DNA of 64,000 nucleotides, from contig NZ_NINX01000015.1 of the NCBI RefSeq assembly GCF_002188635.1, positions 124,001-188,000 on the forward strand, in the 5' to 3' direction. A program made the translations under genes and the position numbers. Shown piece after piece: positions 34,909-54,332 of this stretch (positions within the stretch are counted from its first letter, which is position 1; each line of letters opens with the position of its first letter). The notes under the pieces are model-generated. The model was not told where the DNA came from and did no database searches. It worked only from the letters and a program-made list of their open reading frames with translations. The stretch comes from Pigmentiphaga sp. NML030171 (GTDB taxonomy: Bacteria > Pseudomonadota > Gammaproteobacteria > Burkholderiales > Burkholderiaceae_B).

Positions 34909-35961
34909 ATGGATGTCCAACACGATCTGGATGGCTTCGGCCCGGCGCTGCCCGGCGTGGTCCTGCCTCTGCCCGAGGCAGCCGCGCCCAGGGATTCCGC
35001 CTTCCACGATGCCCATGTCAGCTGCGTCCTGCCCTGCCTGAACGAAGCCCGCAACCTGCGCGAACTGCTTCCCCTCTTGCGAGCCCGCCTCGACACGCTG
35101 TGCCGAAGCTGGGAGATCATTGTGGTGGACGACGGCAGCACCGACGAGACCCCTGAACTCATGGCCCGCTGGAGCCAGGTCCCCGGCTTCCGCTACCTGC
35201 AGCTGTCGCGCAACTTCGGCAAGGAAGCCGCGCTCAGCGCCGGGCTGGAATCGGCGGACGGCGACGTCGTCATCAGCATGGACGCCGACCTGCAGCACTC
35301 GCCCGACCTGATCGACAGGATGCTGGTCAAGTGGGCCGCCGGCGCGGACATGGTCTACGCGGTGCGCAGCCATCGCGACGACGAGCCGGCGCTCAAGCGC
35401 CTGGGCTCGCGGCTGTTCTACCGGCTGCTCAGCTCGCACGGCCGCGTCAACGTCCCGGCGCATGCCGGCGACTTCCGGCTGATGGACCGCCGCGTCGTCG
35501 ACGCCCTGATCGCCCTGCCCGAACGCACCCGCTTCATGAAGGGCCTGTACGCCTGGGTCGGGTTCAAGGCCGAGCCGCTGCCCTACGTTCCCGCCGACCG
35601 TGCCCACGGCAGCAGCCACTTCCGGCCGCTGCAGCTCGGGCGCCTGGCCCTGGACGGGCTGACCGCCTTCACCACCTGGCCGCTGCGCATGGCGAGCCTC
35701 GTGGGTGGGCTCTTCGCGGCGCTGTCCATCGCCTATGGCTGCTACGTGGTGGGTGAATACCTGGTCAAGGGCAACATCGTCGCCGGCTGGACCACCATCG
35801 TCGCCGCCTTGCTGTTCTTCGCCGGCCTGAACCTGATCTCGCTGGGCATCGTGGGCGAGTACGTCGCCCGCATCTTCGACGAGGTCAAGGGCCGGCCGCT
35901 GTACGTGGTCCGCTCGCGCCGGGGCACGGGGACGCGCAGCCGCCGCGCAGGCATGCGATGA
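34909..35961 (+). CDS. lgmA: ArnC/GtrB-like polyprenyl-phosphate glycosyltransferase (Lgm locus)
   Basis: A 350-residue GT2 enzyme that loads a sugar onto undecaprenyl phosphate. Motifs: VSCVLPCLNEARNLREL, VVDDGSTDETPE, metal-binding DADLQHSPDL, and two C-terminal membrane helices before an EVKGRPLYVV tail. By content and neighbours it matches LgmA of Bordetella, which prepares the donor for glucosamine addition to lipid A phosphates. An unusually long N-terminal extension of about 35 residues precedes the catalytic domain; the next ATG options lie inside that domain. Followed by a repeat and the ArnT-like gene. Confidence 0.85.
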   Translation: MDVQHDLDGFGPALPGVVLPLPEAAAPRDSAFHDAHVSCVLPCLNEARNLRELLPLLRARLDTLCRSWEIIVVDDGSTDETPELMARWSQVPGFRYLQLSRNFGKEAALSAGLESADGDVVISMDADLQHSPDLIDRMLVKWAAGADMVYAVRSHRDDEPALKRLGSRLFYRLLSSHGRVNVPAHAGDFRLMDRRVVDALIALPERTRFMKGLYAWVGFKAEPLPYVPADRAHGSSHFRPLQLGRLALDGLTAFTTWPLRMASLVGGLFAALSIAYGCYVVGEYLVKGNIVAGWTTIVAALLFFAGLNLISLGIVGEYVARIFDEVKGRPLYVVRSRRGTGTRSRRAGMR

Positions 35962-36038
35962 AAAACGGCCCCCACGCTTGCCGCTGCGCGGCTGCGCTGC
36001 CCCCCAAGGGGGCGTTTTCATCTTGGGGCGGCCCGGCG
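35962..36038. repeat. GC-rich interspersed repeat, copy 2, between lgmA and lgmB
   Basis: Contains GCCCCCCAAGGGGGC (35999-36013), a 6-bp hairpin followed by GTTTTC, then CTTGGGGCGGCCCGGCG, both shared with the copy near 23.95 kb. It fills the whole gap between the two genes; the lgmB ATG begins directly at its end, so the ribosome-binding region (GGGGCGG) is repeat-derived. The hairpin plus T-run could attenuate transcription into lgmB. Confidence 0.72.
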
Positions 36039-37589
36039 ATGAAAAAAACCAGCCTGTTCTTCGCCGCCATCGCGGCCTGGCTCGCCATGCTGTCCTGGGT
36101 GCGGCCGCTGATGCTGCCCGACGAGGGGCGCTATGCCGGCGTCGCCTGGGAAATGTTGCGCAGCCACTCCCATGCCGTGCCGCTGTTGAACGGCATGCCC
36201 TATTTCCACAAGCCGCCGCTGTTCTACTGGCTGGCCGAGGCCTCGTTCTCGGTGTTCGGACTGAACGAGTTCGCGGCGCGCCTGCCCTCGGTCCTGGCGG
36301 CCTGGCTGGCGGCGGCGGGCCTGTACCTGTTCGTGCGCCGGCGGCGCGACGCCGGCACCGCCGCGGTCGCCACGCTGATCCTGGTCACCCTGCCCTTCTT
36401 CTACGGCGCCGCGCAGTTCGCCAACCTGGACATGCTGGTGGCCAGCCTGATCTCGCTGTGCATCCTGGCCGGCGCCGAAGCGCTGCTGCGCGCCCGCGAA
36501 GGTGCCTCGCCCCGCGGCATGATGCTGGCCTGCGCGGTGCTGGCCGGCCTGGCCGTGCTGGCCAAGGGCCTGATAGGCGTCGCGCTGCCGGCGGCCGTGC
36601 TGGTGCTATGGGTGGCGTCGGCGCGCCGCTGGAAAGACCTGCTCGTCCTGCTGTGGCCGCCCGCCATCGGCGTCTTCCTGGCCGTGGCGGTGCCGTGGTT
36701 CTGGCTGATGCAGCTGCGCTATCCGGAGTTCTTCCACTACTTCTTCATCTACCAGCAGTTCGAGCGCTTCTCCGCCGGCGGCTTCAACAACGTACAGCCG
36801 GCCTGGTTCTACCTGCCGGTGCTTGCCGCGCTGGCGCTGCCCTGGTCGGCCTGGGCGGCCGGCCTGTTCGACAAGCGCTTCTGGAGCACGCCCGACGGCG
36901 GACTGCGACGGCTGATGCTGGTCTGGCTGGCCGTGATCCTGGCCTTCTTTTCCATCCCCAGTTCCAAGCTCATCGGCTACATCGTGCCGGCGCTGCCCGC
37001 CTTCGCCTTCCTGCTGGCCGAGGTCGTCATGTCGGTCCGGCGCAGCGGCCGCAGCCTGCGCTGGCGGCGCCTGTTCCCCTTGTCCGTCATGGGCGCCGCC
37101 ACGCTGTGCGGCGCCGCCATGGCCGCAGCCGCCGCCTATTCGCACCAGGCGCCCAAGTCCCTGGCCACCGATATCGGCACGCGGCTGCGGCCCGGCGACA
37201 CGCTGGTCGCGCTGCACGAGTACCCCTTCCAGCTACAGCTCTATTCCCGCTCCCCCGCCCCCATCTGGGTCGTGGACGACTGGCTGGACCCGCAGATTCC
37301 CTTGCGCGACAACTGGCGCAAGGAACTGTACGACGCCGCGCATTTCGACCCGGTCCAGGGCCAGCAGGTGCTGCTGTCGGACCGGCTGCTGCGCGAACGC
37401 CTGTGCGCGGCGCCCGCCGGGGAACGCTACTGGATCTGGGGCGGCGCCGACGACGCCGCGCGCAAGCCATTCCTGGCGAACCGGCAGCCCGTGCTGAGCG
37501 AAGACCGCAGCCGGGTATGGCTGGTCGAGGCCGGCGACGGGCTCATGCGCCAGGCGTGCGGCGAAACGCCCATAGCCGGCTTGCAATGA
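36039..37589 (+). CDS. lgmB: ArnT-like lipid A glycosyltransferase (Lgm locus)
   Basis: A 516-residue GT83 membrane enzyme. The catalytic periplasmic loop has PDEGRYAGVAWEML and HKPPLFYWLAEASF near residues 28-65; about 12 membrane helices follow, then a C-terminal periplasmic domain from about residue 400. ArnT-type enzymes move an amino sugar from undecaprenyl phosphate to lipid A phosphate; in Bordetella the homologue LgmB adds glucosamine, lowering surface charge and raising resistance to cationic peptides. Start chosen at the ATG before the first helix. The last 47 bases overlap the convergent GtrA-like gene. Confidence 0.86.
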   Translation: MKKTSLFFAAIAAWLAMLSWVRPLMLPDEGRYAGVAWEMLRSHSHAVPLLNGMPYFHKPPLFYWLAEASFSVFGLNEFAARLPSVLAAWLAAAGLYLFVRRRRDAGTAAVATLILVTLPFFYGAAQFANLDMLVASLISLCILAGAEALLRAREGASPRGMMLACAVLAGLAVLAKGLIGVALPAAVLVLWVASARRWKDLLVLLWPPAIGVFLAVAVPWFWLMQLRYPEFFHYFFIYQQFERFSAGGFNNVQPAWFYLPVLAALALPWSAWAAGLFDKRFWSTPDGGLRRLMLVWLAVILAFFSIPSSKLIGYIVPALPAFAFLLAEVVMSVRRSGRSLRWRRLFPLSVMGAATLCGAAMAAAAAYSHQAPKSLATDIGTRLRPGDTLVALHEYPFQLQLYSRSPAPIWVVDDWLDPQIPLRDNWRKELYDAAHFDPVQGQQVLLSDRLLRERLCAAPAGERYWIWGGADDAARKPFLANRQPVLSEDRSRVWLVEAGDGLMRQACGETPIAGLQ

Positions 37590-37938
37590 AGGTACCCACG
37601 GCAATCCCCGCCAACACCGCTGCCAGCAAGACGTCATACCGCACCGAGGACACATGGAGCAGCCAGGCATAGGCCATTTCGTTGACTGCGAAGCCGCCCG
37701 CGGATACGAGAAAGAATCTCGCCGCGGCGCGCTGCCACGCATGCAGCGGATGCCGGAATGTGAACAGCAGATGGCCCGCGAACGACACGCAGAAAGCGGC
37801 CAGCCAGCCCACCACGTTGGCCCGCAGGGGCGCGAGGCCCAGCATTTCGACGCAGGCCACGGCCACGACCCAGTGGGTCGCGGCGGCCAGGCAGCCGACG
37901 GCGACGAAGCGGAGGATCTGTCCGGCAAGCAGGCGCAT
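37543..37938 (-). CDS. lgmD: GtrA-family small membrane protein, probable lipid-linked sugar flippase
   Basis: A 131-residue GtrA-like protein with four predicted membrane helices; typical landmarks are GQILRFVAVGCLAAATHW, NVVGWLAAFCVSFAGHLLFTFRH and FLVSAGGFAVNEMAY. GtrA proteins are thought to flip undecaprenyl-linked sugars. Its place among the ArnC-, ArnT- and ChbG-like genes makes it the likely flippase of the Lgm pathway; the symbol lgmD is my best match and less certain than the others. It is on the opposite strand, converging on lgmB and divergent from lgmC with only 24 bases between starts. Confidence 0.8.
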   Translation of the reverse strand: MRLLAGQILRFVAVGCLAAATHWVVAVACVEMLGLAPLRANVVGWLAAFCVSFAGHLLFTFRHPLHAWQRAAARFFLVSAGGFAVNEMAYAWLLHVSSVRYDVLLAAVLAGIAVGTFIASRLWAFRRTPGA

Positions 37939-37962
37939 GAAGAGCCATCCAACGGATACGTG

Positions 37963-38781
37963 ATGAACGGAACGCCATTATCCGGCAGGCGGATCGTCGT
38001 GTGTGCGGACGACTTCGGCATGGACGCATCGGTCGACCTGGCCATCCTGGCCCTGGCCGCGCACGGGCGCGTCAGCGCCGCCAGCTGCATGACGCTGGGC
38101 CCCAGCTTCGGCGCCCATGCCGGGCTGCTGGCCGGCTCGGGCATCGAGACCGGCCTGCATGTGGACTTCACGGCCTTTCCTGACACGCCCGCCGAGCGGC
38201 TGTCCCTGTCCGTGCTGATTGCCCGCGCCTATGCGGGCCTGCTCGACGGTGGCTGGATCGACGCAAGGCTCGCCCGGCAGTTCGACGCCTTCGAACGGGC
38301 CTTCGGCCGCCCGCCCGACTACGTCGACGGCCACCAGCACGTGCACCAGTTGCCCCACATCCGCGCCCGCCTGGTCGCGCTGCTGGCGCGGCGTTATGGC
38401 GACGCCCCGCCGTGGCTGCGCGCCACGCGCGCCGCGTCCCTGCCCGGCATGCCGCACCCGCCGCGCCTGAAGGCGCACGTGATCGCCGCGCTGGGCGCCG
38501 CCGGGCTGGCCCGCCTGGCGCACGGCCATGGCATGCGAACCAATGCCCGCCTGCTGGGCGTGTACGGTTTCCAGGGCGGAGAACAGCACTATGCCGCGCT
38601 GGTGCGCAACTGGCTGCGGCACGCGGGCGACCGGGACGTGCTGATGTGCCATCCGGCCGTCGCCCCGGTGCCCGACGATCCTCCCGGCGGGCAGCGCGTG
38701 GCCGAATACCGGGTGCTGGCCGGCCCGGCCTTCTCGCGCTGGCTGGACGAGGAAGGCCTGCGCGTGGGGCCGCTGGCCTGA
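37963..38781 (+). CDS. lgmC: ChbG/HpnK/YdjC-family deacetylase (Lgm locus)
   Basis: A 272-residue YdjC-type carbohydrate deacetylase. The metal site is read from VVCADDFGMDASV (Asp), GLHVDFTAFP (His) and VDGHQHVHQLPHI (His-x-x-His). In the Lgm pathway it would remove an acetyl group from undecaprenyl-linked N-acetylglucosamine so that free glucosamine is transferred to lipid A. The ATG at 37963 lacks a strong ribosome site; a GTG directly before it is possible. No room for a promoter between it and the divergent GtrA-like gene except inside that gene. Confidence 0.82.
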   Translation: MNGTPLSGRRIVVCADDFGMDASVDLAILALAAHGRVSAASCMTLGPSFGAHAGLLAGSGIETGLHVDFTAFPDTPAERLSLSVLIARAYAGLLDGGWIDARLARQFDAFERAFGRPPDYVDGHQHVHQLPHIRARLVALLARRYGDAPPWLRATRAASLPGMPHPPRLKAHVIAALGAAGLARLAHGHGMRTNARLLGVYGFQGGEQHYAALVRNWLRHAGDRDVLMCHPAVAPVPDDPPGGQRVAEYRVLAGPAFSRWLDEEGLRVGPLA

Positions 38782-39404: not shown

Positions 39405-40367
39405 TCAATCGACCGTGATGCCCTTGGCCTTGATCAGGCGCCCCATGATCTCGGTCTCCTTGCGTATGGCCGCGGCCGCATCCGCCGGCGTGGTCGCTAT
39501 CGGCTCCAGTCCCGCTTCGGCGATCATCCGCTGCATGCCCGCGGAATGGGTAACGGCCTGGATCTCGCGGTTCAGGCGCTCGACGATGGACACCGGCGTT
39601 CCGGCCGGCACCCAGAAGCCGAGCGACGTGAAGATCTCCACGCCCGGGTAGGACTCCGAGACGGTCGGTACGTCGGGCAGCGCCGCGCTGCGGCGATTGC
39701 CCGTATAGGCAATCGCGGACAGCTTGCCCGACCGGATGGCCGGCAGCGCCGAGACCGGCGGCTCGAACCCCAGCATCACGTGCCCCGCCATGACGTCCGG
39801 CAGGGCCGCCCGCTTGTACGGAACATGCAGCAGCCGTACCCCTGACGCATCCTGCAGCAGTTCGAACCCCAGGTGGGCGGTGCTGCCCGACCCGTACGAG
39901 GCGTAGCTGATCCTGCCCGGCTCGCGGCGCGCCGCGGCCACCAGGTCCGGCACGCTACGAATCGGCACCGCGTTGTTGGCGACGATGAATGATCCCCCGC
40001 GCAGCGCCTGGGTCACCGCGACGAAGTCGGCCTGCGGATCGTAGGGCAGGCGGCTGAACAGAAAAGGCGTGATGGCGAACGGATTGCTGGTCGAGAACAG
40101 CAGGGTATAGCCGTCCGGCTTGGACTTGGCCACCGCGTCGGTCCCGGTCACCGATAGCGCGCCAGGCTTGTTCTCAACATATACCGGAGTGTTCAACGCC
40201 TCCGACAGGCGCTCGGCATAGGCTCGCGCGAAAAGATCGGAGCCGACGCCCACCGGACTGGGCGTGATGATCTTGATCGGATGGCTGGGCCAGGGTGCCT
40301 GCGCCAGCGCGGAAGTCGCGACAGCCTGAAGAATGGCGGCCAGCAGGAACGGAACGAATGCACGCAT
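39405..40367 (-). CDS. Bug-family periplasmic binding protein
   Basis: A 320-residue Bug receptor with a signal peptide (PFLLAAILQAVATSALA). The first ligand loop reads TPSPVGVGSDLFARAYAERL, departing from the common FPPGG form; the rest is canonical (ENKPGALSVTGTDAVAKSKPD in two parts, LPYDPQADF, HVPYKRAALPDVMAGHV, DVPTVSESYPGV). Last gene of the six-gene operon, 23 bases after the 391-residue unknown. Different from the other Bug of this operon, so two ligands or two affinities are served. Confidence 0.93.
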   Translation of the reverse strand: MRAFVPFLLAAILQAVATSALAQAPWPSHPIKIITPSPVGVGSDLFARAYAERLSEALNTPVYVENKPGALSVTGTDAVAKSKPDGYTLLFSTSNPFAITPFLFSRLPYDPQADFVAVTQALRGGSFIVANNAVPIRSVPDLVAAARREPGRISYASYGSGSTAHLGFELLQDASGVRLLHVPYKRAALPDVMAGHVMLGFEPPVSALPAIRSGKLSAIAYTGNRRSAALPDVPTVSESYPGVEIFTSLGFWVPAGTPVSIVERLNREIQAVTHSAGMQRMIAEAGLEPIATTPADAAAAIRKETEIMGRLIKAKGITVD

Positions 40368-40390
40368 GGGAGTCTCCTGATGTCGGTTGT

Positions 40391-41566
40391 CTAATAGGCG
40401 CAGCCGTCCAGCCCCGGCACGACGACCCGCGCCGGATCGTTGTCGTGGGCCTGCAACTGGTCGACCGCGTAGTCGGCCACACACCCCGACAACAATTGCC
40501 GGGGGTCTTCCAGCACCACGCGCAAGCGCGTGTTCATCGCCCACCAGTCGTCGGGCCCGGCGATCGCCGGCAGCTCGGCCACCTCGGTGGTCTCGGGCGT
40601 CAGGCGGGGATGCGCGGCCGCCGCCGGCGCGAAGCGCGGATAGCCGTCGTACATCAGCGGCCCCAGGTCGCTGACCGTGCGCGTGCGCGACCACAACTGC
40701 CGCAGCGGCGACTCGAACGCGCGCGCCGCCGCGACGGCCTGCTCCGGATCGGCCGGCAGTTCCGGGCTGGGCACGTGGGGGGCGATCAGCACGCGCTCGA
40801 GCGGCAGCCGGTAGCGCGAGGCCGCGCGTATCGATGCGCACACCGAATTGGAGGTCCACGTGACGCCGGCGGTGGGCCTGCCCTGCTTGCCGACGATCAG
40901 CGCCATGCTGCGGTCCCAGTCGATATCGTGCCGGTCGAACCAGCCGATGATGCGATGGCCGGTGTCCAGTCCAACCAGGAAGAAGGTCGCGATCATGACG
41001 GCGTTCATGGGCACGGTCGCACCTATGGCGCCGCCCTTGGCCTCGAGATACTGCTCGCGCATGTCCCGGGCGGTGAAGCAGGACGGCTCGCGCAGCGCGC
41101 GCTCAAGGTAGCGCAGCGTCATGGCGCACGCGTAGTCCACCATGCCGGCGATGGCCTGCTCGCGCCCCCGGTACGCCGCCACCGCGATCTCGTCGCGCCA
41201 CAGTGCCGCCGAGTTGGCGGCCCGGACCGCGCGGGTCGCGTCCATCATGCGCCGCGCCTCGCCCTGCCACGCCTGGCCGTCGGGATCCAGCTCCCGCATC
41301 TTCAGCAGCGACGCCACGGCCGGCCCCAGGTGGGAGACGGCGGCCAATTCCTTGAAACCCCGGTTGAACAGGCGATAGCCCTGGACTTCGGGAGCGCGCC
41401 CGGCGCCCGGATACAACACGATGTCGGTGCTGGTGGCGACGATCAGCGGATCCCCCGCCAGGGCGGCGCCCATCATGGCGGCCAGCTTGGCGCCCAGGCT
41501 GTCGGCCGCGGCCGTGTAGGTTTCATACAGGCGCAGGAAATCCGGATTCTGGTAGGCGGGATTCAT
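40391..41566 (-). CDS. Protein of unknown function in the EAR/aldolase operon
   Basis: A 391-residue soluble protein I do not recognise. It has no signal peptide. A hydrophobic MNAVMIATFFLVGLDTG stretch near residue 195 is too polar at its ends to be a clear membrane helix. Segments such as WFDRHDIDWDRSMALIVGKQGRPTAGVTW and the C-terminal WWAMNTRLRVVLEDPRQLLSG look conserved. The pattern is compatible with an enzyme. It overlaps the EAR gene by four bases, so it acts in the same pathway. AGGAAA precedes its ATG. Confidence 0.85.
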   Translation of the reverse strand: MNPAYQNPDFLRLYETYTAAADSLGAKLAAMMGAALAGDPLIVATSTDIVLYPGAGRAPEVQGYRLFNRGFKELAAVSHLGPAVASLLKMRELDPDGQAWQGEARRMMDATRAVRAANSAALWRDEIAVAAYRGREQAIAGMVDYACAMTLRYLERALREPSCFTARDMREQYLEAKGGAIGATVPMNAVMIATFFLVGLDTGHRIIGWFDRHDIDWDRSMALIVGKQGRPTAGVTWTSNSVCASIRAASRYRLPLERVLIAPHVPSPELPADPEQAVAAARAFESPLRQLWSRTRTVSDLGPLMYDGYPRFAPAAAAHPRLTPETTEVAELPAIAGPDDWWAMNTRLRVVLEDPRQLLSGCVADYAVDQLQAHDNDPARVVVPGLDGCAY

Positions 41567-42675
41567 GTCGTTTCCTTTCCATCGCCGCCCGGCACGGCCG
41601 GGTCGAGCTCGTAGATGCGGGTCGGCGTGCGAAAGCGCACCTGCGGCGACAGGCTGTTCGCCACCACGAGATAACGTTTGCCATCGTGGCGGAAATACGC
41701 CGCGTCGGTAGCGCCGTGGGTGGGGAACGACATGGCGGGAACCAGCCTGTCGTCGGCGAACCGGTAGATGACCGACTCCAGGTCGGTGATGGGCGCCTCG
41801 CGGGTGCCGCGCAGGAAATTCACTACTACCAGCGCCTGTATGTCGTCCAGCCATGCAAACTCCCTGCCGCCGGGGCCTGAGACCGTCTGGTGCGGCACGA
41901 AGCGGCCGTCCGACCACCTGTACAGCAGCGTGTCGCCGAGCAGATTGCAGAAGGCCAGCCAATGCCGCCCTCGCGTCTCGAAATGGCAGAAGGCGCGCCC
42001 GCTGTTGCCGTCCAGGTCCTGGAAGTGCTCGAACGACGAGCCGTTCCAGCGCAGCAGCCGTGACGGCCGGACATGGTCGGCATAGGCCAGCAGCCGGTGT
42101 CCGTCGACGTCGATATCGGCCCAGTTGTAGCCCCAGGCGGAGTCGATGTGCTGAAAGGGCGAGAAATCCCGGCCAGTCCATTCATACAGGGTCGACATGT
42201 CCTGCCGGGCCGGCGTCTCTCCCGGCGCAGCCACGCACTGGGCCAGCGCCAGAAAGTGGCGAGTTCCGACCGCGAGGTACTTCCATTGCTTGGCCGCGAA
42301 GCTCGGTACCTGCTGCAAAGGCAGGAAACGTCCGGCGTGCAGTTCGAAGATGGTCGATCCCGGGCGCATGTCGTAGGGGCCGGCGCCGTGGCGAAGGCTG
42401 GCCACGGCCAGGAAAGCGCGTTCGCCGATGCGGAAGAACTCCGCGTCCTCGCCGCCCGGGGCGTCCAGGGCCGCGTCCGGCACGAAGCGGCCGCCTTCCC
42501 AACGGTAGATCAGCGTCTGCGTATCGCTGTTCCCCGCCGTCATGTCGGCGGGCGTTCCTTCGACGTCGCGCGCCAATTGCGGCACGGCCAGGTAGCGCGC
42601 CCCCTCGTGCTCGAACGTGGCCGCGGCCCGTGCTCCCGACGTATCCAGTTCCTGGATGCAACGCAGGCCGATCAT
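41563..42675 (-). CDS. Seven-repeat EAR/EPTP-type beta-propeller protein
   Basis: A 370-residue protein made of seven repeats of about 45-50 residues, each of the form hydrophobic-Q-x-h...FxxxGxxYLAVAN followed by hYRWxxGxFVP. Examples are GARYLAVPQL, ERAFLAVASL, TRHFLALAQC, HRLLAYADH, RHWLAFCNL and KRYLVVANS. This is the EAR (EPTP) repeat pattern known from LGI/VLGR1 proteins, predicted to form a seven-bladed propeller. There is no signal peptide. Four-base overlaps on both sides tie it to the amidohydrolase and the 391-residue protein. Role unknown; propeller enzymes, lactonases and scaffolds are all possible. Confidence 0.88.
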   Translation of the reverse strand: MIGLRCIQELDTSGARAAATFEHEGARYLAVPQLARDVEGTPADMTAGNSDTQTLIYRWEGGRFVPDAALDAPGGEDAEFFRIGERAFLAVASLRHGAGPYDMRPGSTIFELHAGRFLPLQQVPSFAAKQWKYLAVGTRHFLALAQCVAAPGETPARQDMSTLYEWTGRDFSPFQHIDSAWGYNWADIDVDGHRLLAYADHVRPSRLLRWNGSSFEHFQDLDGNSGRAFCHFETRGRHWLAFCNLLGDTLLYRWSDGRFVPHQTVSGPGGREFAWLDDIQALVVVNFLRGTREAPITDLESVIYRFADDRLVPAMSFPTHGATDAAYFRHDGKRYLVVANSLSPQVRFRTPTRIYELDPAVPGGDGKETT

Positions 42676-43568
42676 GGCCGCCTCGCCTCGGGAAAGCCGA
42701 ACAGCCTGGCGGGATTCTCGACCAGGATGCGTTTTCGCCCCTCCGGCTCGGGCACCCAGTCCGCCAGCAGGTTCAGCAGATTGCCCGTATCCAGGGCGCC
42801 GTCGGGAATATGCGGCCAGTCGCTGCCCCAGATCACGCGATCGGGCAGGGTCTCGACGATGGCGCGGGCCAAGGGCCGCAGCCGGACATAGTTCCTGTCC
42901 TTGGCCAGGCGATAGGGACCGGACAGCTTGAACCAGCCGCGCCCCTCGTGCGCCGCCCGCAGCAGGCGGTCGAAATCCTCGCGGGTCAGGCCGTCGGTCT
43001 CCAGCATGTAGCCCATGTGATCGATGACGAAATCGGCCCCGATCGACGGCAGGAACGGAATCAGGTCGCGCACCACCCATCCCGGGGTATAGAACTGCAC
43101 GTGCCAGCCCAGGCGCGAGGCGCGGCTCACGCTGCGTTCGATGTAGGCCCGCAGTTCCCGGCCCGGCAATTGGGCGCGCAGGAAGAGATCCAGCCTGAGC
43201 GCGCGGACGCCCCGTTCGTGCATGCGCGCCAGCGTCTCCTGATCGACGTCGTCGTCGACCATGGCCACGCCGCGCGCGTGACCGCCGCAGCGGTCCAGCG
43301 CATCCAGCATGCAGCGGTTGTCGGTGCCGTAGTAGCTGGGCTGCACGATCACGTAGCGCTCCACCCCCAGTGCATCCAGCGCGCCCTCCAGCTTCGATTG
43401 TTCGCCGTCGGGCAGCGTGTAGTGGGGATGCGGGACGCGCGGATACCGGTCGGCCGGCCCGAAGACGTGCACGTGGGCATCGCAGGCCCCCGGGGGCACC
43501 TCGAAACGGGGGCGCTCCAGCGTGGAAGGCGCGCGCATGGGCGTGGAAGTCAGCATGGAATCTGTCAT
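42672..43568 (-). CDS. Amidohydrolase_2-type TIM-barrel hydrolase/decarboxylase
   Basis: A 298-residue metal-dependent hydrolase of the amidohydrolase 2 family (lactonases, ACMSD-like decarboxylases). The N-terminal metal motif is ACDAHVHVFGPADRYPR, with VIDHMGYM in the middle and the catalytic Asp in VIWGSDWPHIP. The proteins closest in style are 2-pyrone-4,6-dicarboxylate lactonase relatives. The ATG at 43568 is used; a TTG at 43589 overlapping the upstream stop is an alternative. Overlaps the EAR gene by four bases. Confidence 0.9.
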   Translation of the reverse strand: MTDSMLTSTPMRAPSTLERPRFEVPPGACDAHVHVFGPADRYPRVPHPHYTLPDGEQSKLEGALDALGVERYVIVQPSYYGTDNRCMLDALDRCGGHARGVAMVDDDVDQETLARMHERGVRALRLDLFLRAQLPGRELRAYIERSVSRASRLGWHVQFYTPGWVVRDLIPFLPSIGADFVIDHMGYMLETDGLTREDFDRLLRAAHEGRGWFKLSGPYRLAKDRNYVRLRPLARAIVETLPDRVIWGSDWPHIPDGALDTGNLLNLLADWVPEPEGRKRILVENPARLFGFPEARRP

Positions 43569-43585
43569 GGCAGGACCGTGGTGTA

Positions 43586-44563
43586 TCAATCGAGATGGAC
43601 GCGCCCGCTCGCGGCGACGCGCCGGTTACGGACCAGTTCGGAAGAAATCGCCTCGCGCATCGCGGCAGGATCGTAGGCCTGGAGCTCGAATCCCTGGCCT
43701 TCAAGGGAAAGACGCAGCCCCGGTTCGGCCATTGCTTCGCGCAACGCGCGTCCGACCGCCTCCTGCTGGGCCGCGGGCGCCCCCGCCGGCATGACCAGGC
43801 CCACCCACGAGCGATAGCTGTAGTCGGTCAGCGCGGGCAGTCCCGATTCGGCGTAGGTCGGCACCTCGGGCAGCAGGTCCCAGCGCTGCGCGCCCGTCGC
43901 CGCCAGCGCGCGTACCCGGCCGCTGCGCACATAGGGCACGATGGGTGCCGTGACGTAGACCATCATGTCGACTTCGCCGGCCACGAGCGCGTTCATGGCC
44001 TGCGCCTCGCCCTTGTACGGCACGTGCCGCGCGGCGATCCCCAGCGCCTGCAGCAGTTCCTCGCTTTGCAGGTGCAGGCTGGTGCCGACGCCGAAGGACC
44101 CGTAGGTCAGCCCGTCGGGATGGGCCTTTGCATGTTCGACCAGTCCCGCCAGATCCGCCACCGGCAATCCCGCACGGACGGCCAGCACTCCCGAGTTCGC
44201 CGCCACGATGGCCAGCGGCGTGAAATCCTTCAACGGGTCGTAGCCGACGGCGCGGTCCACCACCGGGTTCACAGTCAGGATGGACGGCGACACCGCCAGC
44301 AGCGTCTGGCCATCCCGCGGGGCTCGCAGCGCGGCCTGGGCGCCGATCTTGCCCGCCGCGCCCTGGCGGTTCTCGACCACCACCGGGACCTCCAGACGCG
44401 GTTGCAGGTACTGGGCAACCACCCGCGCCACACGGTCGATCGGTCCGCCGGGCGGCGTCGGCACCACGATGGTGAGCGCGCGCTGGGCGTGGGCCGGCGG
44501 GATCCCCGCCATCAATACGGCAGCCAGGGCCAGCGCCCCGCGCCAGCAGCGGTCACGTCGCAT
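43586..44563 (-). CDS. Bug-family periplasmic binding protein
   Basis: A 325-residue Bug receptor with a signal peptide (GALALAAVLMAGIPPAHA). Ligand loops: VVPTPPGGPIDRVARVV, ENRQGAAGKIGAQAALRAP, VGYDPLKDFTP, HVPYKGEAQAMNALVAGEVD and EVPTYAESGLP. Its ATG at 44563 lies inside the 3' end of the aldolase gene; a GTG five codons upstream is also possible. Second gene of the operon. Distinct from the terminal Bug in the same operon. Confidence 0.92.
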   Translation of the reverse strand: MRRDRCWRGALALAAVLMAGIPPAHAQRALTIVVPTPPGGPIDRVARVVAQYLQPRLEVPVVVENRQGAAGKIGAQAALRAPRDGQTLLAVSPSILTVNPVVDRAVGYDPLKDFTPLAIVAANSGVLAVRAGLPVADLAGLVEHAKAHPDGLTYGSFGVGTSLHLQSEELLQALGIAARHVPYKGEAQAMNALVAGEVDMMVYVTAPIVPYVRSGRVRALAATGAQRWDLLPEVPTYAESGLPALTDYSYRSWVGLVMPAGAPAAQQEAVGRALREAMAEPGLRLSLEGQGFELQAYDPAAMREAISSELVRNRRVAASGRVHLD

Positions 44564-45377
44564 CGCCGGCCCCCACACAAGCCAGGGCCTGGACGACGCG
44601 CTCGCGCATTGCCGCGGCCAGCAGGTCGCTGTCTATGCCCGTCATCATGAACGGCGCGGCGCCGCGTTCGATCAGGTCCGCCACATAACGAACGTCGGCA
44701 ACCCCTCCGATGACCAGCGGCTTGCCCGCCCGCAGGCACGCGCGCAGGGCCGCCTCGTGCGCCTCGCGCACGCGGGGATGGGTGGCCTCGCCGGGCACGC
44801 CCAGTTCGGCGCTCAGGTCATTGGTGCCGATGGCCACCAGATCCACGCCGGGTACGCTGGCGATGGCCTCGGCATTCTCGATCCCGAGCGGGCTCTCCAA
44901 CAGCACCTTGACGAGGGTGGCGCGGTTGGCGGTGGCATAGAGTTCCGCCGCCGGCACCCGGCGGAATCCGACGCAGGGCAGCGTCGCGATGGCCGACCGG
45001 TGTCCCTGGGGCGGGAATCGGCAGGCGGCCACCAGGTCCGCGGCCTGCCCGGCCGTTTCGACCCGGGGGAAAATGATGCCCGAGGCCCCCGCATCCAGCA
45101 GCCGTCCCACGACGCCATATTCGCGCTCGGGCACCCTGACCAGCGCCGCCATCCCCAGATCTGCCGCGGTGCCGCACAACGCGCCCGCCACATCCACGGG
45201 CATGGTGCTGTGCTCCAGGTCCACCCAGACCGCGTGGTGTCCCGTGGCCCTGGCCCACCGCACGACATCGGGCGTACGCGCGCATCGCAGGCCCAGCGCC
45301 GCCACCGGCAGCCGGCGAACCAGCCGGTCGATGACGGGATGGACGGCGTCTGTCCGCGAGTTGTCTCGTTGATCCAT
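44553..45377 (-). CDS. HpcH/HpaI-family class II aldolase
   Basis: A 274-residue TIM-barrel aldolase of the HpcH/HpaI (2,4-dihydroxyhept-2-ene-1,7-dioate aldolase) family. Recognisable are VWVDLEHSTM, IIFPRVETAGQAADLV, LLESPLGIENAEAIA and LVAIGTNDLSAELG carrying the metal-binding Glu and Asp. Such enzymes split 4-hydroxy-2-oxo acids to pyruvate or oxaloacetate plus an aldehyde. First gene of the six-gene operon and divergent from a LysR gene 94 bases away, so probably the operon's committed or final carbon-splitting step. Confidence 0.92.
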   Translation of the reverse strand: MDQRDNSRTDAVHPVIDRLVRRLPVAALGLRCARTPDVVRWARATGHHAVWVDLEHSTMPVDVAGALCGTAADLGMAALVRVPEREYGVVGRLLDAGASGIIFPRVETAGQAADLVAACRFPPQGHRSAIATLPCVGFRRVPAAELYATANRATLVKVLLESPLGIENAEAIASVPGVDLVAIGTNDLSAELGVPGEATHPRVREAHEAALRACLRAGKPLVIGGVADVRYVADLIERGAAPFMMTGIDSDLLAAAMRERVVQALACVGAGDAT

Positions 45378-45428
45378 TATCTGTTCTCGCCTCCTCGATG
45401 CCCCGCATCCTAAGCCTCCTTTTTTATA

Positions 45429-45441
45429 TTCTGAAATACAA
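45429..45441. promoter_or_regulatory. Candidate LysR T-N11-A site between the aldolase operon and its LysR gene
   Basis: TTCTGAAATACAA has T-N11-A spacing with TTC-T-GAA inside it, in the AT-rich divergent interval, 31 bases before the LysR ATG. A nearby GATATC-CTAAA-GATAT direct repeat (45458-45473) may be a second contact. Weak but well placed. Confidence 0.4.
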
Positions 45442-45471
45442 TTTGAATGAGGCTTTCGATATCCTAAAGAT

Positions 45472-46362
45472 ATGATCGAGCTACGCCACCTGCGCTACTT
45501 CATCGCCGTCGCGGAAGAACTCAACTTCACGCGCGCCGCCCAGCGGCTGCACATGGCGCAGCCGCCGCTCAGCATCCAGATCCGCGCGCTGGAAGAAGAA
45601 CTCGAGGTGCAATTGTTCGAACGCGACAAGCGGCGCGTGGCGCTGACCCAGGCGGGGCGGCATTTCCTTGAGCGCGCCCGCGGCATCCTGCGCGAGGTCG
45701 AGGATGCGAAAGGAGAAGCCCGAAGCGCCGCCTCGGGCGAGATCGGCGCCATTTCGCTGGGCTATACCGCGTCGTCGATGCTGTCCTCGCTGCCGTCCAT
45801 CCTGCGGGATTTCCAGCTCGCCCATCCCCAGGTGCACATGAACCTGCACGAGATGACCTCGGTCGATCAGCTCGATGCCGTCAACGCGCGCACGCTGGAC
45901 CTGGCCATACTCCGGCATCCCGGGGTGGAGATCCCGGCGGGCATCGCCATCGAGGAATGGCTGCGCTCGCCGCTCGTTGCGGCTATCCCCGCCGGCCATC
46001 CTCTGGCGGCCGCCCCGCTCCACATACGCGACCTGCGCGACCATCCGCTGGTCATGTATCCGCGCCAGGCAGGCATAGGTTTGTATTGGAAGGTGCAGGA
46101 CCTGTGCGCGAAAGCCGGATTCCGGCCGCGCATGGTCCAGGAAGCCCGCGAAGCCTCCACCATCATCGGGCTGGTCGCGGCCGGCGTGGGCATCGCCATC
46201 GTGCCATCGCACACCCGCTGCATCGCCCTCGGTGGAGTGATCTACCAGCGTATCCTGGACAAGGACGCGGTATCGCCGCTGCACCTGGCCTACCGCACGG
46301 CCGATCAGGGCGTTCACCTGCGCAAGTTACTTGTCCAACTGCGCGCGCGCCGGAAAATGTAA
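45472..46362 (+). CDS. LysR-family regulator (BenM/CatM-like opening)
   Basis: A 296-residue LysR protein starting MIELRHLRYFIAVAEELNFT with RLHMAQPPLSIQIRALEEEL, the sequence style of aromatic-catabolism regulators such as CatR/BenM. The effector domain starts near residue 92. Divergent from the aldolase/Bug/amidohydrolase/EAR operon, which is probably its target, and that relationship hints at a ring-derived dicarboxylate as inducer. Confidence 0.93.
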   Translation: MIELRHLRYFIAVAEELNFTRAAQRLHMAQPPLSIQIRALEEELEVQLFERDKRRVALTQAGRHFLERARGILREVEDAKGEARSAASGEIGAISLGYTASSMLSSLPSILRDFQLAHPQVHMNLHEMTSVDQLDAVNARTLDLAILRHPGVEIPAGIAIEEWLRSPLVAAIPAGHPLAAAPLHIRDLRDHPLVMYPRQAGIGLYWKVQDLCAKAGFRPRMVQEAREASTIIGLVAAGVGIAIVPSHTRCIALGGVIYQRILDKDAVSPLHLAYRTADQGVHLRKLLVQLRARRKM

Positions 46363-53568: not shown

Positions 53569-53645
53569 TGGCGGAGCGGACGGGACTCGAACCCGCGACC
53601 CCCGGCGTGACAGGCCGGTATTCTAACCAACTGAACTACCGCTCC
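53569..53645 (-). tRNA. tRNA-Asp (GTC), copy 1
   Basis: 77 bases including the encoded CCA. The acceptor stem GGAGCGG/CCGCTCC, T-arm GGTTCGAGTCC and anticodon loop CTGTCAC give Asp GTC. Last gene of the left Ala-Glu-Asp cluster. Confidence 0.96.
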
Positions 53646-53681
53646 GCAGCGGCGTTTTTACTGCTGCCAACCTGTGGCGGT

Positions 53682-53757
53682 TGGCGTCCCCTAGGGGATT
53701 CGAACCCCTGTACTCACCGTGAAAGGGTGATGTCCTAGGCCTCTAGACGAAGGGGAC
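53682..53757 (-). tRNA. tRNA-Glu (TTC), copy 1
   Basis: 76 bases including CCA. Acceptor GTCCCCT/AGGGGAC, anticodon loop CTTTCAC (anticodon TTC). It is charged by GltX, whose gene is 1.5 kb upstream on the same strand. Confidence 0.96.
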
Positions 53758-53774
53758 CTGGAACTGCTGTTTCG

Positions 53775-53850
<76 letters not shown>

Positions 53851-53924
53851 ACGGTTACTGCCATTCAGTTACCGCCATCCATCTGGGTGGATGCCCGCTG
53901 AAATGTTTTTCAAGCGGGATCTGG

Positions 53925-53930
53925 ATTATA
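53925..53930 (-). promoter_or_regulatory. -10 box of the left tRNA cluster
   Basis: Minus-strand TATAAT, a perfect -10, about 75 bases before tRNA-Ala copy 1; a -35 is weak (GACTTG with 16-base spacing). The leader between holds a CCCGCT...AGCGGG hairpin. Confidence 0.6.
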
Positions 53931-53992
53931 GCCATATTTCAGCTTGCAAGTCCACGCAGGACCCGCCTGAGACACAGGCGGAGCAGAAAAGC

Positions 53993-54035
53993 AAAAGCCC
54001 TGCTAAACACGGGATTTAGCAGGGCTTTCTGATTC
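53993..54035 (-). terminator. Terminator of the right tRNA cluster
   Basis: A perfect hairpin: AAAGCCCTGCTAAA and TTTAGCAGGGCTTT around CACGGGA. On the minus strand it is followed by TTTTGCTTTTC. It ends the gltX-proximal tRNA transcript and separates the two clusters. Confidence 0.85.
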
Positions 54036-54036
54036 T

Positions 54037-54113
54037 TGGCGGAGCGGACGGGACTCGAACCCGCGACCCCCGGCGTGACAGGCCGGTATTCTAACCAACT
54101 GAACTACCGCTCC
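54037..54113 (-). tRNA. tRNA-Asp (GTC), copy 2
   Basis: Sequence-identical to copy 1 over the mature 77 bases as far as I can read, with the same anticodon loop CTGTCAC. Confidence 0.96.
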
Positions 54114-54150
54114 GCAGCGGCATATTTTTACTGCTGCCAACCTGTTCGGC

Positions 54151-54226
54151 TGGCGTCCCCTAGGGGATTCGAACCCCTGTACTCACCGTGAAAGGGTGAT
54201 GTCCTAGGCCTCTAGACGAAGGGGAC
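54151..54226 (-). tRNA. tRNA-Glu (TTC), copy 2
   Basis: Identical to copy 1 over the mature 76 bases as far as I can read; anticodon loop CTTTCAC. Confidence 0.96.
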
Positions 54227-54256
54227 CCGGAACTACAGTACTGCTTCTTCCCGGAC

Positions 54257-54332
<76 letters not shown>

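Follow-up and report, generated by a model that had tools for sequence, protein, structure and literature searches.

An EAR beta-propeller and a DUF5624 protein as constant neighbours in a patchily distributed, catabolic-type gene cassette

Genes of the operon and the propeller pair

Two adjacent genes, one for an EAR propeller and one for a DUF5624 protein, lie in a six-gene operon within a 64,000-nt stretch of the genome of Pigmentiphaga sp. NML030171 (contig NZ_NINX01000015.1; 'the window' below, whose positions serve as coordinates throughout). A sequence-only reading of this DNA had described six minus-strand genes with a divergent LysR gene, and all are found where it placed them and in its order. 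Read along the minus strand, they encode an HpcH/HpaI-family aldolase or lyase of 274 amino acids (aa; 44553-45377; Pfam PF03328, 106 bits); Bug1, a TctC-type periplasmic receptor of 330 aa from a GTG start (43586-44578, with an alternative ATG at 44563; PF03401, 207.4 bits); an amidohydrolase-2 family protein (AH2) of 298 aa, a LigI-like lactonase candidate (42672-43568 from ATG, a TTG at 43589 being possible; PF04909, 153 bits); the EAR/EPTP seven-bladed beta-propeller, 370 aa (41563-42675; PF03736, 127 bits); the DUF5624 protein, 391 aa (40391-41566; PF18538, E 2e-47, 160.9 bits); and Bug2, a second TctC-type periplasmic receptor, 320 aa (39405-40367; PF03401, 205.5 bits). The LysR-type regulator (296 aa, 45472-46362; PF00126 and PF03466) is on the plus strand, 94 bp from the HpcH gene across a divergent promoter region (45378-45471) that holds a candidate operator. 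All seven proteins score above the Pfam cut-offs, which are 21 bits for EPTP, 25 for DUF5624 and 27 for PF03401.

The genes are tightly packed: 4-nt overlaps join AH2 to EAR and EAR to DUF5624; HpcH and Bug1 overlap by 26 or 11 nt, and Bug1 and AH2 overlap by 4 nt or are separated by 17 nt, depending in each case on the start chosen; the gap between DUF5624 and Bug2 is 23 nt. Judging by its retention in other genera and in another phylum, this arrangement is not due to chance.

The EAR protein had been credited with seven repeats. Pfam delimits six EPTP stretches, and the seventh blade is visible in the predicted structure, which has 28 strands (pTM 0.86) and is modelled as a seven-bladed propeller. 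When the model is compared with known folds, LGI1 fills the top six rows and is the nearest in fold; the epilepsy-associated EPTP domain of LGI1 differs in being only 16% identical to the window protein in the structural alignment, and the latter is a stand-alone bacterial protein, encoded in an enzyme operon and paired with DUF5624. The blades carry an asymmetric polar ring of residues, R16, E76, K129, Y183, R227, R271 and T323, of which six positions are invariant in 22/22 sequences and the seventh is kept in 21/22; at the other 41 blade offsets compared, conservation never rises above 3/7. These counts use 22 of 26 extracted rows (L054 was over-extended, L059 fused, L064 damaged and L068 partial, and the locus L078 was not in the set). 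The ring is kept even in proteins only 34-40% identical to the window EAR.

A different arrangement is seen in genome G915, where EPTP repeats (C1:431756-435781, L022-L025) lie in one uninterrupted reading frame of 19,352 codons that seems to encode a giant repeat-rich surface protein. By eye, these repeats bear other residues at the ring positions; the ring is therefore not required for an EPTP repeat.

The neighbouring 391-residue protein, earlier called an unknown, belongs to a family of uncharacterised function, DUF5624, with one solved member, 4jx2, a Legionella pneumophila protein titled 'putative secreted protein (lpg1979)'. The window protein finds 4jx2 by phmmer at E 1.9e-22, and a nine-member DUF5624 profile aligns with it almost end to end (27-430 of 431, E 1e-139). 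The two differ in setting, the solved protein being titled as secreted and the window protein having by eye no signal sequence and a place in a catabolic-type operon. Structure prediction, which had been suggested for both proteins, gave a confident propeller for EAR and a poor model for DUF5624; with that model (mean pLDDT 47.6) Foldseek ranks 4jx2 first at E 1.9e-5, with a TM score of only 0.28-0.30, and gives no other fold neighbour at E <= 0.001, a negative that carries little weight with a model of this quality. Residues invariant in 24/24 DUF5624 sequences (24 of 26 rows, L066 and L068 being left out) include R65, E73, H79, W100, W123, E136, Y145, W217 and R347.

Recurrence, pairing and the occupied site

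EAR adjoins DUF5624 in all 26 usable loci. Three of these (L065-L067), in which the order of the two genes is reversed, were found through an EAR search, and the rest through a DUF5624 search or as the window itself; G915, where the EPTP repeats belong to a larger protein and form no stand-alone propeller, was left out. Two fragmentary contigs lie outside the count: L068, of 3.6 kb, agrees with the pairing, and that of L076 begins inside DUF5624. In a plasmid collection, separate searches with EAR and DUF5624 match the same 2 of 72,556 records. In one locus (L059, genome G1460) the pair is a single frame of 754 codons, with no stop, and with no start codon near the DUF5624 part; this fused frame keeps all seven ring residues. 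The fused frame, the constant adjacency and the 4-nt overlaps together make a physical or functional partnership of the two proteins likely. Pairwise identities of the four cassette proteins (HpcH, AH2, EAR and DUF5624) also correlate, with r 0.91-0.97 over 19 loci.

The full four-gene set is present in 21 of the 26 loci: the window, L002, L003, L004, L006, 15 genomes of the Variovorax genus (L049-L063) and L078. Alcaligenaceae SAGV5 (L002) has the whole seven-gene unit at 87-96% identity; G1874 (L078) has the six genes in the order of the window; Variovorax EL159 (L003) and, in another phylum, Agromyces Soil535 (L004, 44-54% identity) have HpcH-AH2-EAR-DUF5624 in window order; on Sinorhizobium RAC02 plasmid pBSY16_1 (L006), HpcH-AH2 and EAR-DUF5624 are separated by about 7 kb, with an ABC importer between them. 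All 15 complete 20-kb loci of the Variovorax genus hold the four genes. Conservation of EAR and the unknown gene with the operon in relatives had been named beforehand as a point on which the sequence-only reading could fail. Both genes are conserved, and the co-occurrence of EAR with HpcH and amidohydrolase genes that it raised is seen in those 21 loci. That reading had proposed to look in other Burkholderiales; the system is not confined to this order, the set being found also in Agromyces and on the Sinorhizobium plasmid.

Five loci (L005, L064, L065, L066 and L067) have EAR-DUF5624 without HpcH and the amidohydrolase in the stretch read. In four of them, L066 being the fifth, a related alpha/beta-hydrolase lies directly beside DUF5624; these are 42-55% identical, in the matched part, to the copy on the Streptomyces mirabilis plasmid (L005). 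As the pair also occurs without HpcH and amidohydrolase, EAR-DUF5624 looks like a separate two-protein module that a pathway of the window's type has recruited. In a DUF5624 tree neither partner type forms one clade, with at least two changes each; the branches are long, and deep placement is unsure.

Several loci show further peculiarities. In L064 (a contig of genome G1500, Variovorax genus), with EAR, DUF5624 and the alpha/beta-hydrolase, part of EAR matches on the other strand and the hydrolase is truncated next to genes that by eye are IS21-like; either the EAR gene is damaged or the contig is misassembled. G1500 also has two further DUF5624 pieces. The Streptomyces mirabilis plasmid NZ_CP108478.1 bears a second DUF5624 copy of equal score at 912407-912796, about 220 kb from the first.

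The genes are sparsely scattered. Wide presence in the window's own group was considered and rejected: among the 399 genomes sampled from the order, only the window's own has DUF5624. EAR is found in 1/151 genomes of the family sample (again the window's own), in 4/369 of the class sample with the window's genome included, and in 2/398 of the phylum sample, namely the window's genome and G915 (four matches, all of them in the giant repeat frame). Around other carriers, DUF5624 occurs in 2/150 genomes of the Agromyces genome's family (that genome included), in 1/246 of its class (that genome itself), in 2/165 of the family of Variovorax EL159 (EL159 included) and in 18/101 of the Variovorax genus, again with EL159.

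Closer to the window, none of the five same-genus genomes listed has an EAR match. Two of them, G797 and G886, have the flanking genes of the cassette, for a thioesterase and a methyltransferase, side by side, the tblastn matches being about 570 and 310 bp apart; in the window the LysR-to-Bug2 segment (39405-46362) lies between those flanks, at a distance of 8 bp on the thioesterase side and 478 bp on the methyltransferase side. Because the distribution is patchy, insertion at this site would be a simpler reading than loss. In SAGV5 the same borders hold the cassette and a further LysR-Bug-amidohydrolase set (L002:379-3322), so the site may collect catabolic genes. The 15 Variovorax-genus loci have mostly different surroundings: outside the cassette, the called neighbours have only porin and MFS genes in common, save in a few pairs of loci. 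Since relatives are empty at the same site and surroundings differ, the unit, consisting of LysR, HpcH, an optional Bug1, amidohydrolase, EAR, DUF5624 and Bug2, seems to move as a block.

Accompanying enzymes, uptake and regulation

The best solved relatives of the window amidohydrolase are 2-pyrone-4,6-dicarboxylate (PDC) hydrolases (4d8l, 4di8, 4di9 and 4dia; E 1.7e-47). For the enzyme LigI, of the same amidohydrolase-2 family, we take the relevant residues to be H31, H33, Y49, S77, R124, Y156, H180, R217 and D248, with R130 as the carboxylate binder. Over the 20 loci covered by the residue counts (L078 is not included), the equivalents of H31, H33, Y49, R124, Y156, H180, R217 and D248 are kept in 20/20 rows and that of S77 in 19/20; D248 is the residue altered in the 4dia and 4di8 rows. 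The likeness ends at R130, whose equivalent is replaced in 19/20 rows (A in 9, S in 8, Q in 2, and R in the remaining 1), the window enzyme having an Arg one position before it; nor are the partner genes in the cassette those of the PDC pathway. Identity with 4-sulfomuconolactone hydrolase (NF042924) was rejected at 172.5 of the 500 bits needed.

The cassette aldolase shares the HpcH_HpaI family with the class II aldolases HpaI, YfaU and GarL. The YfaU reference residues are the base H49, the Arg R74, the metal ligands E153 and D179, and a Gln at 151; the His, the Arg and the metal Glu and Asp are kept in the cassette HpcH in 20/20 rows, and the Gln differs, being Leu in 20/20. HpaI (TIGR02311; 107 bits against a cut-off of 368.8), GarL (92 against 406.75) and RhmA (YfaU; PRK10128, 86.6 against 441) were each rejected as identities. 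The amidohydrolase and HpcH both stay below every curated equivalog cut-off and so cannot be given a named reaction. Macrophomate synthase is among the relatives of HpcH (1izc, E 5.2e-16).

The alpha/beta-hydrolase that stands in as partner of EAR-DUF5624 in four loci resembles PcaD, the 3-oxoadipate enol-lactonase, which is the best NCBIfam model for the L005 copy at 77.6 bits; that copy differs in falling under the cut-off of 255.85 and in an elbow, GFASxGH, in which the serine nucleophile is uncertain. An apparently secreted alpha/beta-hydrolase of a type other than the PcaD-like one is encoded close to the cassette in three loci, L003 (3803-4573), L006 (924-1697) and L056, with 65-78% mutual identity, and is not counted here as belonging to the unit. 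In the Agromyces operon a malate synthase G above its cut-off hints at glyoxylate.

Uptake genes had been counted as part of the unit, and Bug orthologues do recur with the cassette. A Bug1 orthologue lies within the operon in L002, in 5/15 complete Variovorax-genus loci and in L078; Bug2 is present in 14/15 of those loci (on the opposite strand in 3) and in L002, L003 and L078. Among the 26 sources, 13 have a porin gene and 5 an MFS gene of the aromatic-acid-symporter type.

A divergent LysR orthologue accompanies the set in L002, L003 and 15/15 complete Variovorax-genus loci; L078 is without one at the locus, and L004 has a GntR gene instead. The regulator had been called BenM-like, which holds in a general way only: with 176.1 bits against the cut-off of 600 for BenM (NF040709), identity with that regulator was rejected, and the best NCBIfam LysR model, AlsR, scores 272.6 bits, below its cut-off of 430. 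The element TATTTCNNN[AG]TA is present in 18/18 LysR-HpcH intergenic stretches; its offset from the LysR match is 33 nt in 17 of them and, in L053, with a match that begins one codon later, 37 nt. Its natural reading is as a candidate LysR operator, although part of its conservation reflects shared descent, the loci being related.

What the pair may do

One way to bring these observations together, and the one towards which we lean with some reserve, is to regard the segment as a mobile cassette for catabolism, with EAR and DUF5624 acting as a single and probably enzymatic unit alongside a lactonase and a carbon-carbon lyase. A small organic acid would be imported by way of the periplasmic Bug receptors, or in other bacteria by an MFS symporter or ABC importers, and the LysR protein would turn the genes on. 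EAR and DUF5624 would form a cytoplasmic two-subunit unit, probably an enzyme, whose substrate would sit within the propeller's central channel or above it, at the conserved Arg/Glu/Lys/Tyr/Arg/Arg/Thr ring. Its reaction would be non-hydrolytic, whether an isomerisation, a lactonisation, a hydration or an elimination, and would produce or modify a lactone-type acid, before or beside the lactonase and the lyase; the LigI-like amidohydrolase would open the lactone, and the HpcH-family enzyme would split a carbon-carbon bond to yield fragments for central metabolism. The lactone-type product gains support from the partners of the pair, which come from two unrelated hydrolase families, LigI-like and PcaD-like, that both include lactonases. 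The earlier proposal of an operon for uptake and breakdown of an acid, with EAR and the unknown as new components, is partly supported: it stands in its conserved parts, its uptake genes and, within the open-licence papers searched, its want of a published description; for an aromatic origin of the substrate the LigI-like residues and the five MFS genes are suggestive only.

Several observations weigh against this explanation. No substrate, product or activity is on record for any member of the cassette; conserved rings in propellers can bind proteins instead of substrates; and in the poor DUF5624 model an active site is not locatable. The fusion in L059 is that of one assembly, without reads, and the correlation of identities is partly shared ancestry. 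The pair's role need not be specific to the pathway, given the five loci without HpcH and amidohydrolase, and in one of these, L066 (also L009; gammaproteobacterial genome G579), DUF5624 and EAR both open by eye with an apparent signal sequence, which would seem to fit an exported role better than a cytoplasmic step. Malate synthase G was rejected as a general partner, being present in 1/26 sources. As for mobility, an empty site could reflect loss in the relatives, and three of the five same-genus genomes do not show one: G824 and G847 have only a methyltransferase relative of 50-52% with no thioesterase nearby, and G867 has no match.

Other explanations take their start from one or another of the enzymes. 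The LigI likeness suggests an analogue of the lower gallate/protocatechuate 4,5-cleavage route, in which the tautomerase LigU and the hydratase LigJ perform the middle steps and LigK is the final aldolase: AH2 would open a pyrone-type lactone first, EAR and DUF5624 would replace LigU and LigJ, and HpcH would replace LigK. The solved PDC hydrolases as nearest relatives of AH2, eight of the nine LigI residues kept throughout (and S77 in all rows save one), and the match of four cytoplasmic proteins to four steps all speak for this scheme; it is nonetheless unlikely in our estimate, for the carboxylate-binding R130 is replaced in 19/20 rows, EAR-DUF5624 is also found without AH2 and HpcH, and no LigU, LigJ or LigK family appears among the cassette genes by Pfam name. 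About as unlikely is a route for sugar acids, with AH2 as sugar lactonase, EAR/DUF5624 as dehydrating step and HpcH cleaving a 2-keto-3-deoxy acid to pyruvate and an aldehyde (glyoxylate if the acid is a C5 diacid). The fold match that would serve it ties with WD40 propellers, HpcH is without the usual Gln in every row, one MFS variant is of the aromatic-acid type, and Pfam finds no sugar dehydrogenase or enolase-type dehydratase among the cassette genes.

The remaining alternatives question the premises. EAR-DUF5624 might be no enzyme at all, serving different metabolic cassettes through binding, scaffolding or sensing, much as EPTP domains bind proteins in animals; in favour of this, the two proteins keep company with either of two unrelated sets of partners and in one locus with neither, and a passage in PMC3691968 presents the EPTP domains of LGI proteins as thought to serve protein-protein interactions. 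To this we give the same low standing as the sugar-acid route: the ring consists of seven mostly different residues, kept in distant homologues, and by eye the G915 repeats do without it. That the operon is biosynthetic or detoxifying instead of a nutrient pathway would suit the patchy distribution and the kinship of HpcH with macrophomate synthase; we consider this very improbable, as the same enzymes are accompanied by importers of four kinds and, in half the sources, a porin gene, and by Pfam the conserved unit is free of synthase, ligase and efflux genes.

Catabolic operons made up of a lactonase, an aldolase and Bug receptors are of a known kind; the novelty lies in the EAR-DUF5624 unit. 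In the open-licence papers searched, judged mainly by title and abstract, no published pathway covers the gene set, as the sequence-only reading had supposed; there is no mention of DUF5624 or lpg1979, nothing on HpcH/HpaI aldolase, amidohydrolase and Variovorax together, nothing on bacterial EAR operons, and neither DUF5624 nor the stand-alone EAR propellers of bacteria are given a function there. A bolder form of the cassette explanation is offered tentatively, and we doubt it more than we credit it: EAR and DUF5624 may constitute an undescribed class of two-subunit enzyme, with the EPTP propeller as the catalytic or substrate-binding half and a lactone-type acid as product, paired either with LigI-like and HpcH enzymes or with a PcaD-like hydrolase, and passed across phyla. 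Should the pair prove to be an enzyme, the fold of epilepsy-linked animal proteins would gain a catalytic branch. Through their constant pairing, a fused frame that occurs naturally and the clear borders of the cassette, two orphan families become one testable unit, supplied with a regulator, a candidate operator and receptors; the receptors and the regulator offer a direct route to the substrate.

Elsewhere in the window, the region downstream of the operon (35958-38781) encodes what appear by eye to be an ArnT-like membrane protein and a small GtrA-like protein, together with a YdjC-family deacetylase identified by Pfam. On the minus strand at 53569-54332, a tRNA-Asp/Glu/Ala cluster is present in two tandem copies.

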